In this document: in pieces, positions 57,434-60,480 of the stretch
Numbering within the stretch: the first letter of the stretch is position 1
Layout of the letters: each line of letters opens with the position of its first letter
Assembly: GCA_002709225.1 (NCBI GenBank)
Contig: PAQH01000056.1
Coordinates: forward strand, 1 to 64,000
Source of the DNA: Planctomycetaceae bacterium
GTDB lineage: Bacteria > Planctomycetota > Planctomycetia > Pirellulales > Pirellulaceae
DNA: 64,000 bases
Reading direction: 5' to 3'
Translations under genes and position numbers: made by a program
Notes under the pieces: model-generated
The model's input: the letters and a program-made list of their open reading frames with translations, nothing else
The model's database searches: none
What the model was told of the DNA's origin: nothing

Positions 57434-57460
57434 TATAATCCCGTGATTCAATCCGGGATT
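57434..57460 (+). promoter_or_regulatory. TATAAT box overlapping an inverted repeat upstream of the WD40 gene
   Basis: TATAAT at 57434-57439 is a perfect -10 hexamer, though the region 17 bases upstream matches a -35 box poorly. It overlaps the left arm of AATCCCG (57437-57443) / CGGGATT (57454-57460), a perfect 7-bp inverted repeat that could be an operator or a 5' leader hairpin. Confidence 0.35.
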
Positions 57461-57472
57461 TGAATGCACTAT

Positions 57473-57521
57473 GATACTACCCAGGATACTACCCAGGACA
57501 CAACGCAGGGATACAACGCAG
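57473..57521 (+). repeat. Four tandem 12-13-bp units upstream of the WD40 gene
   Basis: GATACTACCCAG occurs twice exactly (57473-57484, 57485-57496), then GACACAACGCAG and GGATACAACGCAG follow without spacing. They lie between the candidate promoter and the ribosome site of the WD40 gene, thus probably in its leader. Confidence 0.8.
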
Positions 57522-57569
57522 GATCCGAACGCGAACCAAGTTGCCCTATCGCCCCCAAAGGAGATTTCC

Positions 57570-59201
57570 ATGACCTGGAATCGTACGTTCTTGACACTTA
57601 CCACCGCCTTCCTGCTGGCTTGTTGCCCAGTTGCAATGACCATGGCCCAGGACGAAGAAGCCGCAGCGGAGGAAGACGCGGCGGCAGAAGACGCAGGAAC
57701 CGCCCTGGCCAAATACGATCGCTGGGTCACCTCACTGGGATTCTCACCGGCAAATAACATGTTGGTCACCGCTGGCGGCCAAAGCCTGCAATACCGACCC
57801 GGTGACGTCAAGATCTGGGATGCGACCAGTGGCAACCTGGTGGCCTCATTTGAAGGTCACTCCAGTAATGTCTGGTCGGTCGCGATCTCCGCCGACGGGA
57901 AAACACTGGTCACCAGTGGCTACGATGGCAAGGTCATCGTCTTTGATGTCGAAAGCAAGAAAGCAAAAGCGACCCTCGCCAAACACAAGGGATGGTGCCG
58001 TAGCGTAGCCATCACTCCCGATGGCAAGCACTTTGCCTCCGCTGGTGAAGATGGGTCCGTTCTAATCTGGGATCTGACAGCCGCTCCCCAGGCCGCCGAG
58101 CAACCGCCCGCACCTGGCAAAGCCGAAGAAGCTCCGGCGTTGAACATCGTCAAGACGATCAAAGCCCACGAACAAGCGGTCTACCAGGTCGCATTTTCCC
58201 GCGACGGTAAGACGCTCGCCACGGCCAGTACAGACAAAACGGTCAAACTTTGGGCCTGGCAGGAAGCAGAACCAAAAGAGACAGCCAAACTGGAAGGTCA
58301 CAGTGACGCTGTCTGGGATGTCAAGTTTTCCGCAGACGGTAGCCAAATCGCGACCGCCAGCGCCGATCGCTCGATCAAGCTCTGGGACGCAGCCGGAAAA
58401 GAACTGGCGACGCTCGTGGGACATAAGGACTGGGTCAGCAACGTAGCTTTCTCACCTGACGGAAAGACCATTGCAAGTACCAGCCATGACCGGTCCACGA
58501 AGCTCTGGAATGTCGAACTGGCAATGAAATTGTCAGCCGAAGTCAAAGCTACGCTCACGAAACTTACCGACAATCAAGCGGCTTCACAGAAAGCCACCGA
58601 TGAGCTAGGTCCCGCTCAAACTGCAGCCGACCAGGCACAGAAAAAAGCGGAAGCCATTACCGCGATCGTCGATTCGCGACGGCTGCCCGAAGAACTCAAA
58701 CAAGTCGAAGCCGCACTATTACTGGCCAAGGACAACCAGATTCTCAAGGAGGCGCGTGACGCCGCTAAGAAAGCAGCGGAAGCAGCCACCAAGGCGGCTG
58801 CCGAAAAGACCAAGGCTTTCGAGGGAGACAAGGATTTCTCGGCCAAATTAAAGACAATCACCGAGGGGCCATTGGCAGACTCCCAAAAGGAAAAACAGAC
58901 CGCGGACAAGGCGGCCACTGACGGGGTCGCTAAGGTCAAAGCGCTCACCGATCAGAAAACGGCTGCCGACAAGGCAATCACCGAGGCGAAAGCCAAACGT
59001 GATGAGCTGTCTGAGCAACAAGCCAAGACCGTAAGCGGCTACAAAGGCAGTGTGTGGACCGTAGCGTTCTCCAACGACGGAAAGTTGTTTGCCACCGGTA
59101 GCCACAAAGATACGTTACGGATCTTCGCGCTCGGAGACGAAGTCCAGGAACTGCATCCGTCACCAGCCGAAGAGGAGGCTGGCGAAGAGGAGGCTGAATA
59201 G
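57570..59201 (+). CDS. Exported WD40 protein with a coiled coil inserted between blades 6 and 7
   Basis: A 543-residue exported protein. The signal peptide (1-27, TTAFLLACCPVAMTMAQ) is followed by an Ala/Glu-rich linker (28-47). Six WD40 blades occupy about 49-318, each with a GH...V...FSPDGK...S.D..V.LWD pattern. Residues about 318-489 are a Lys/Glu/Ala-rich coiled coil with no WD features. A seventh blade (YKGSVWTVAFSNDGKLFATGS, about 490-521) then completes the ring, so the coiled coil is an insertion, not a tail. The C-terminus is acidic. AAAGGAG is 6 bases before ATG 57570. A strong terminator follows. It is probably a periplasmic or surface scaffold. Confidence 0.92.
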   Translation: MTWNRTFLTLTTAFLLACCPVAMTMAQDEEAAAEEDAAAEDAGTALAKYDRWVTSLGFSPANNMLVTAGGQSLQYRPGDVKIWDATSGNLVASFEGHSSNVWSVAISADGKTLVTSGYDGKVIVFDVESKKAKATLAKHKGWCRSVAITPDGKHFASAGEDGSVLIWDLTAAPQAAEQPPAPGKAEEAPALNIVKTIKAHEQAVYQVAFSRDGKTLATASTDKTVKLWAWQEAEPKETAKLEGHSDAVWDVKFSADGSQIATASADRSIKLWDAAGKELATLVGHKDWVSNVAFSPDGKTIASTSHDRSTKLWNVELAMKLSAEVKATLTKLTDNQAASQKATDELGPAQTAADQAQKKAEAITAIVDSRRLPEELKQVEAALLLAKDNQILKEARDAAKKAAEAATKAAAEKTKAFEGDKDFSAKLKTITEGPLADSQKEKQTADKAATDGVAKVKALTDQKTAADKAITEAKAKRDELSEQQAKTVSGYKGSVWTVAFSNDGKLFATGSHKDTLRIFALGDEVQELHPSPAEEEAGEEEAE

Positions 59202-59239
59202 ACTCTTACCGTCTCAACGGCGATGTCTTAACCATCCAG

Positions 59240-59284
59240 CGCCTCACGGAGTCTTGTCAACCACGACTCCGTGAGGCGTTTTCT
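59240..59284 (+). terminator. Rho-independent terminator of the WD40 gene
   Basis: Perfect 14-bp inverted repeat CGCCTCACGGAGTC (59240-59253) and GACTCCGTGAGGCG (59265-59278), loop of 11 bases, followed on the plus strand by TTTTC. It lies 38 bases after the WD40 stop codon. Confidence 0.92.
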
Positions 59285-59358: not shown

Positions 59359-60480
59359 TCACGTCCCCAATGACGATTGGATCTCAGCGCGGACTGCAGG
59401 CTCTGACTCCTCGGCCAAACGCGCTCGTAATGCTTCGGTAGCTGCCACCTGCCGATGACGGCCGAGCGCCCACGCCACTGCGGCGCGGACGATCATCTCC
59501 TGGTCATGCAAACCTTTCAAGAGTGCATCCAGACCTCTCGCCGACGGTCGATTACCCAATACGATTGCGGCATTCCTCAACAAGCCTCGGCGTTTTGAAC
59601 GCCATAAAGGCGTTTTCCGAAAGCGTTGGCGAAACCCCGCTTCATCCAAATCAAATAGTCGTACAACATCCAATGGATACTGCTGAGAATCCGCCGCGAA
59701 TTGGCTTTCTTGCGCAGCTGGAGCAGCGCGATTCCAGGGGCAGACTTCCTGGCAGACATCACAACCAAATACCCAATTGTCGATCCCGTCGCGTAATTCC
59801 GCAGGGACCGAATCCCGTAATTCGATCGTCAGGTAACTGATGCAACGCGTAGCATCGAGGACGTACGGCTCCGGAAACGCGGCCGTTGGACACGCATCCA
59901 AACAGGCGCGACAGCTCCCACAATAGTCACTTTCGTAAGGAGTGTCGTATTCGAGTAGCTGGTCACTGAGTAGCGCAGCCAAAAAGAACCAGCTCCCTTG
60001 TTGCCGGTTCAGCAATAGCGTGTGTTTACCTACCCAGCCCAATCCGGCAAGCTGCGCAAACTCGCGTTCTAGAAGAGGCGCTGTATCAACCACACCCCGC
60101 AACCGGGCCCCGGGATCCTGCTGATGGTACCAGCGCACCAGCTCTTTCAATCGCTCATGGATCAAGTCGTGATAGTCGATTGTGCCCCACGCGTAACATG
60201 AGACCCGACCTTCAGACTGCTCCGCGGCAACCGATTCTCCAGAACGATAGTTCATACCCAGCATCAGAATACTGCGAACCCCATCGAGCACCGATCGAGG
60301 ATGGGTATATGCTGCCTGCCGGTCAATCAGATAACGCATTTCTCCAGCGTAGCCGGCCGCGAGCCAATCGTGAAAGCGACTGAGACCCTGTGGTGAAACT
60401 GCCGGACACACGCCGGTCAATTGAAAACCCAGTTCTCCGGCGCGTCGTTTCAAAAGACGGGTAAATCCAGGCAGCTTCAT
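59359..60480 (-). CDS. queG: Epoxyqueuosine reductase
   Basis: QueG (373 aa) reduces epoxyqueuosine to queuosine in tRNA using cobalamin and two iron-sulfur clusters. MRYLIDRQ, VVDTAPLLEREFAQLAGLGWVGKHTLLL (with the catalytic Asp) and the ferredoxin-like blocks CGSCRACLDACP and CDVCQEVCPWNR are all present. The C-terminal 80 residues form HEAT-like repeats (DALLKGLHDQEMIVRAAVAWALG), as in other long QueG proteins. Length matches the long form. It is convergent with the WD40 gene. Other queuosine genes are not in the window. Confidence 0.96.
   Translation of the reverse strand: MKLPGFTRLLKRRAGELGFQLTGVCPAVSPQGLSRFHDWLAAGYAGEMRYLIDRQAAYTHPRSVLDGVRSILMLGMNYRSGESVAAEQSEGRVSCYAWGTIDYHDLIHERLKELVRWYHQQDPGARLRGVVDTAPLLEREFAQLAGLGWVGKHTLLLNRQQGSWFFLAALLSDQLLEYDTPYESDYCGSCRACLDACPTAAFPEPYVLDATRCISYLTIELRDSVPAELRDGIDNWVFGCDVCQEVCPWNRAAPAAQESQFAADSQQYPLDVVRLFDLDEAGFRQRFRKTPLWRSKRRGLLRNAAIVLGNRPSARGLDALLKGLHDQEMIVRAAVAWALGRHRQVAATEALRARLAEESEPAVRAEIQSSLGT

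Follow-up and report, generated by a model that had tools for sequence, protein, structure and literature searches.

A putatively exported planctomycete WD40 protein family with a long helical arm predicted inside blade 6 of the propeller

In Nup120, a helical bundle is found between blades 6 and 7. Helical domains can also interrupt a single blade, as described for the CNH domain propeller of Rom2 from Aspergillus, where they are placed between strands C and D (PMC8488606). In the BBSome, the beta-propeller of BBS1 carries a helical insertion that likely touches BBS4 (PMC7018513). In the PVC membrane-coat-like proteins, a C-terminal stacked-helix (SPAH) domain comes after the beta-propeller (PMC2799638). 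The case described here is encoded at 57570..59201 of the window, the whole stretch of 64,000 nucleotides that was analysed. The open reading frame, Pfam matches and genome comparison identify its product as a WD40 propeller protein of 543 aa with a helical arm, probably exported from the cytoplasm; the gene and all the elements annotated with it lie on the forward strand. The original prediction had described six WD40 blades, a helical stretch and one last blade, with the helices sitting between blades 6 and 7. The order of these parts holds, but the AlphaFold2 model moves the helical stretch into blade 6 itself.

The start of the gene is marked by an AAAGGAG ribosome-binding site (57557..57563) which is identical across sister species in the leader alignment and lies 6 nt from the ATG at 57570. 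An upstream ATG at 57471 is unlikely to be the true start, since it is not preceded by a ribosome site and its frame is broken in the leaders of the sister species. Inspected by eye, residues 1-26 (57570..57647) form a signal peptide, in which a hydrophobic N-terminal signal ahead of the propeller is closed by the signal-peptidase-I-like end AMTMA/QDEE, with probable cleavage after AMTMA. Signal peptides of typical form are likewise recognized by eye across family members. A lipoprotein reading of the segment 'LLAC' was considered less likely given the ordinary signal-peptidase-I-type sites seen by eye in relatives. The sequence therefore speaks for a 543-aa WD40 protein that would be exported via Sec. 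In the leader, a TATAAT -10-like element (57434..57439) belongs to a block that is identical in the aligned leaders of three congeneric genomes; a consensus promoter scan reported no promoter at these positions. The tandem repeats that had been noticed in this leader are real, as a repeat search locates them at 57473..57521 with units of 12-13 bp, although comparison of the sister leaders reveals that they are not conserved between species. One sister species presents an unrelated 14-bp tandem repeat between the TTATAAT block and the ribosome site (L029:3879-3962), and no repeat family is found in the leader of the other sister species. The leader repeats turn over fast and are probably neutral, because they differ between sisters whereas all three congeners have an identical TTATAAT block and an identical ribosome site. 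At the opposite end of the gene, a strong terminator had been proposed, and folding energy and sister comparison agree with it: an intrinsic terminator hairpin followed by TTTTC (59238..59280) reaches -32 kcal/mol (z -7.2), and a sister species keeps a 16-pair hairpin and a T tract with a changed stem sequence. On the strength of these signals, the gene may form an independent and well-expressed unit, as had been suggested.

The propeller is recognized by the Pfam WD40 model PF00400 in 6 stretches, with 219.7 bits against a cut-off of 27. The match to TolB (TIGR02800) stays below threshold (27.1 bits against a cut-off of 343), and CNH is absent among the best 25 of the 53 Pfam families matched by the 543-aa protein. 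Seven WD40 repeats can be counted in total, six of them contiguous and the last one separated from the others by about 170 residues rich in A/K/E/D/Q/L. The full protein was modelled with AlphaFold2 using an input that included two close relatives, which resulted in a mean pLDDT of 77.5. Blades 1-5 together with strands a-c of blade 6 span residues 53-314 (57726..58511), as delimited by Pfam and AlphaFold2. In the model, strand d of blade 6 is formed past the arm by residues 486-490 (59025..59039), and strands a-c of blade 7 occupy residues 495-520 (59052..59129), namely 495-500, 506-511 and 517-520, in accordance with structural alignment. Only blade 7 and an acidic tail are left C-terminal to the helices. 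Residues 43-523 of the model align with nvWRAP-T over 285/286 residues (rmsd 1.6, Z 42.6) and with residues 38-334 of WDR5 with a Z of about 39. The outer strand of blade 7 is unformed in the model, where residues 45-48 appear as a helix of low confidence. Nevertheless, the start of WDR5, residue 38, aligns from residue 43, and we infer that this strand should be provided by residues about 43-50, as in other N-terminally closed WD40 rings; a probable 'velcro' strand was accordingly annotated at residues 43-52 (57696..57725).

The unformed outer strand and the location of blade 7 far off in the sequence could be taken as signs of a six-bladed or open ring in which the last repeat packs elsewhere, for instance against the coil. 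Such an arrangement is scarcely credible in view of a structural alignment that spans the full seven-bladed ring, of orthologs that have seven contiguous blades, and of residues W496 and G510 of blade 7, which are invariant with and without the arm. In the predicted structure the last repeat takes the place of blade 7 in the ring, and the ring is not closed by blade 6 against blade 1, so that neither of the two outcomes named beforehand as contradicting the original prediction is seen. The model is thus that of a seven-bladed ring closed by blade 7, and the closed propeller with a long helical arm leaving it that was originally envisaged is recovered by structure prediction and by alignment to complete rings.

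In the WD40 topology, c-d loops lie on the bottom face of the ring, and the top face bears the d-a and b-c loops. The arm is located in the c-d loop of blade 6, at residues 315-484 (58512..59021), as established by AlphaFold2, ortholog alignment, periodicity and a register test. Strand c of blade 6 is at residues 309-314 of the model, and it is followed by helices at 315-385, 390-417, 421-432 and 435-484 before strand d is reached. The model, together with the alignment to relatives, places the helical stretch between strands c and d, splitting blade 6, and the fold tolerates this insertion. Hydrophobic residues and alanines recur with a period of 3.4 in the first long helix and of 3.5 in the last one, a strength equalled by 1/1000 shuffles in each case. 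This periodicity is more in keeping with coiled-coil packing than with an isolated charged helix. Comparison of the arm sequence with solved structures and Pfam gave no match. The arm is not a chance low-complexity run, judging from its sequence, because it combines the hydrophobic/alanine periodicity with an in-register match among relatives that exceeds shuffles and cyclic shifts.

How the arm is folded is suggested mostly by topology. Strands c and d lie side by side in the same sheet. The chain therefore has to come back to where it left, and a simple antiparallel hairpin is likely on this ground. Within the full model, the pLDDT of the arm is 71-90; when folded alone, the arm yields a pLDDT of 50 and a pTM of 0.23, and the first helix break shifts between models. 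This weak monomer model, as well as the heptad periodicity, would also be compatible with a dimerisation or oligomerisation coil in which the arms of at least two molecules pair, instead of building only an intramolecular hairpin. The intermolecular coil is a possible alternative that we consider doubtful, as the neighbourhood of strands c and d in one sheet and the forced return of the chain favour an intramolecular antiparallel pair. The antiparallel hairpin is accordingly retained as the likely form of the arm. Symmetrical shortening of the arm in family f9 was also considered as proof of a hairpin and discarded, given that only the last 48 residues are in register and the first half is ambiguous.

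The distribution of the arm was traced in a family gathered by searches across the source genus, family, order and class. A single family member was seen in the source genome, where other WD40 matches cover partial length with at best 32% identity. Most family members possess these seven blades and lack an insertion in blade 6. The arm-less orthologs share about 50-64% identity over blades 1-6, display seven contiguous blades and have zero extra residues at the arm site. Relative to them, 164 extra residues are present in 8/9 arm-bearing sequences and 163 in the ninth. These nine sequences come from six genera of the source family: the source genus and those labelled G003, G018, G024, G036 and G339/G340. 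The order of propeller, inserted arm and last blade is therefore present in other planctomycetes, as had been anticipated. By the same token, the rarity that was claimed for this architecture can be upheld only in part, since it is recurrent within the source family and helical c-d insertions are known elsewhere (PMC8488606). The 164-residue arms align gap-free and in register with 22-40% identity between most genera, rising to 57-60% for G018 and G339/G340, which are closely related. When compared with the reference arm of the 543-aa protein, in-register scores lie at z 8 to 13 over shuffles and above every cyclic shift. That the length is held constant while identity falls so low is, at the sequence level, the strongest indication of selection acting on the arm.

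Against selection, the insert could be seen as a neutral, easily gained Ala/Lys/Glu-rich helix without a specific role, merely tolerated by the c-d loop. In line with this possibility, the arm is less conserved than the propeller among members outside the source genus (27-40% versus 41-65% identity), it is missing in most members, and some arm-less relatives bear long A/K/E/P-rich tails elsewhere in the protein. However, neutral helices of this kind vary freely in length, and the arm keeps 164 extra residues (once 163) across six genera, together with its heptad periodicity. Its gap-free register is preserved even where identity is only 22%, with scores clearly exceeding those of shuffled and cyclically shifted arms. 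A neutral insert is for these reasons unlikely, and an arm under selection for its length is the reading followed below. Because most members of the wider family lack it, the arm is dispensable for the core function of that family.

A shorter version of the arm is found at the same site in a genus of another family (G044, G061), with 92 extra residues. Its last 48 residues correspond in register to the final 48 of the longer version and the remainder is ambiguous, which gives a hint in the sequences of a common origin of the 92- and 164-residue arms. In a tree built from the propeller only, the presence of the arm needs 4-5 changes over the whole tree. A single group for eight of the 164-type forms, and with it one origin of the 164-residue arm, is neither demonstrated nor rejected when the long-branched L020 is left out (p-AU 0.30). 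Among arm-less relatives, long repeat tails of the (K/E)AAA type or rich in K/E are present C-terminally in L015, L057, L060 and L062 and ahead of the propeller in L054. It is as if one end of the ring or the other could take up a helical element. An exchange of the inner arm against long tails is only suggested: the comparison gives 0/8 versus 8/16 (Fisher p 0.02) with rows that are related to each other. Other additions to the propeller have also been observed. The ortholog L046 is extended by a C-terminal SMP-30/gluconolactonase-type domain (PF08450, 143.8 bits). In family f8 (L041, L043, L047-L051, L053 and L054), a C-terminal domain of about 175 residues carries the motif GPGRAGNGNFVLS and has no Pfam match; by eye, this domain resembles part of L002, which is a haem-type/WD40 protein encoded in the source genome. 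None of the fusions found among family members explains the function.

The part of the protein that all members have in common is best defined by conservation among 47 of them. Near-invariant positions comprise W52, Y75, R76, G78, Y118, W142, E160, D161, D222, K223, D266, R267, W288 and W496, with W142, D161, W288 and W496 conserved in 47/47 members each and E160 in 45/47. Those positions that fall outside the ordinary WD40 framework cluster mostly in top-face loops. A family signature, GG-x-SL-x-YRPG, was delimited in the b-c loop of blade 1 on the top face (residues 70-78; 57777..57803). An Asp in b-c loops and a Trp in d-a loops are common across bacterial WD40 repeats. The YRPG loop is accordingly the clearest mark of the family, because some of the other conserved residues belong to that common set. 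Defined by GG-x-SL-x-YRPG plus the equivalents of W142, D161, W288 and W496, the family includes the 543-aa protein. With the conserved residues in top-face loops and the c-d arm on the bottom, the strongly conserved face is thus opposite the arm.

The genomic context of the gene varies among lineages. In the source genus, the WD40 gene is flanked on one side by an SSS transporter plus cupin gene and on the other by a convergent queG-like gene. The latter, at 59359-60480, would encode an epoxyqueuosine reductase with C-terminal HEAT repeats, and the terminator lies between both genes. At 12 other loci from several planctomycete genera (L011, L013, L014, L017-L019, L035, L037, L038, L057, L059 and L060), the WD40 gene is placed 25-330 bases upstream of ricT on the same strand, often followed by a gene of the Minf_1886 family. 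A DUF1614 gene is directly upstream of the WD40 gene in five other loci. ricT is not directly downstream in the source genus, and the same genome has it on contig C43. RicT is a cytosolic protein, and the ricT linkage therefore says little about a physical partner of the WD40 protein.

Taken together, the reading that we consider reasonably probable is that of an exported, closed seven-bladed scaffold with a conserved top face for a shared partner and a length-critical bottom arm. According to it, a single-copy WD40 scaffold would be exported via Sec, and its top face, where the d-a and b-c loops display aromatic and charged residues, would most likely bind a family-wide partner, probably a protein or peptide. 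The coiled-coil arm would leave the bottom face at the c-d loop of blade 6 and come back to the same point, so that the ring still closes. Most likely, the arm would provide a second, length-critical contact for partner docking, oligomerisation or envelope spacing, so that it resembles an attachment arm of fixed length mounted on a binding ring that is conserved. A more specific proposal, in which the protein acts as a molecular ruler, is a long shot: the top face would bind a conserved envelope target and the rigid arm of fixed length on the opposite face would hold or sense a second layer or partner at a set distance, and lineages would exchange it for a shorter arm or for tails. Irrespective of its role, the family offers a natural series with, without and with a shorter arm, in which a closed beta-propeller carries a long helical element inside one blade and keeps the ring. 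This series may be used to learn how scaffolds gain accessory arms and may help in protein design. Attention is also drawn to a well conserved, putatively exported and uncharacterised family in planctomycetes, a group with a poorly understood cell envelope, and the exact residues and the exact arm are defined for testing.

In the literature covered, which comprises few of the subscription journals, no paper on this planctomycete architecture or family was found, and comparison has to be made with systems that share single features with it. The closest relatives are the arm-less planctomycete orthologs, which have in common the seven blades, the YRPG loop, W142, D161, W288 and W496 and the signal peptide, and which are often found upstream of ricT and a Minf_1886-family gene. 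They differ in a blade 6 without insertion, in the A/K/E/P-rich C-terminal tails of some of them and, in one family, in the extra C-terminal domain. A possible relative in design is L118 from the source genome (G000:C34:49000-55000), a 1104-residue open frame for a haem-type protein in which about 14 WD40 blades are interrupted by a long A/K/E-rich coil. In this case, the coil of about 300 residues follows blade 7 and separates two blocks of about 7 blades, and the N-terminal region bears a CxxCH motif. Many WD40 blades separated by other segments are also seen on the Nitrospirae contigs L030 and L032, in frames of more than 2100 residues with a kinase-like start. The PVC membrane-coat-like proteins resemble the present one in that they, too, occur in planctomycetes and contain both a beta-propeller and helices (PMC2799638); the 543-aa protein is not of this type, as its helices are inside the propeller and are followed by a blade. 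BBS1 is similar in that its propeller has a helical insertion for which contact with a further subunit has been proposed, although it belongs to a eukaryotic complex and there is no sign that the inserts are related (PMC7018513). The CNH domain of Rom2 has the c-d helical insertion as a shared feature rather than as a mark of membership, and it differs in that its helical domains are short, lie in blades 2 and 5 of a eukaryotic Rho1 scaffold and form no long coil (PMC8488606). Helical c-d insertions in propellers were hence known already, and what is new is a variant with a long arm in a putatively exported planctomycete family.
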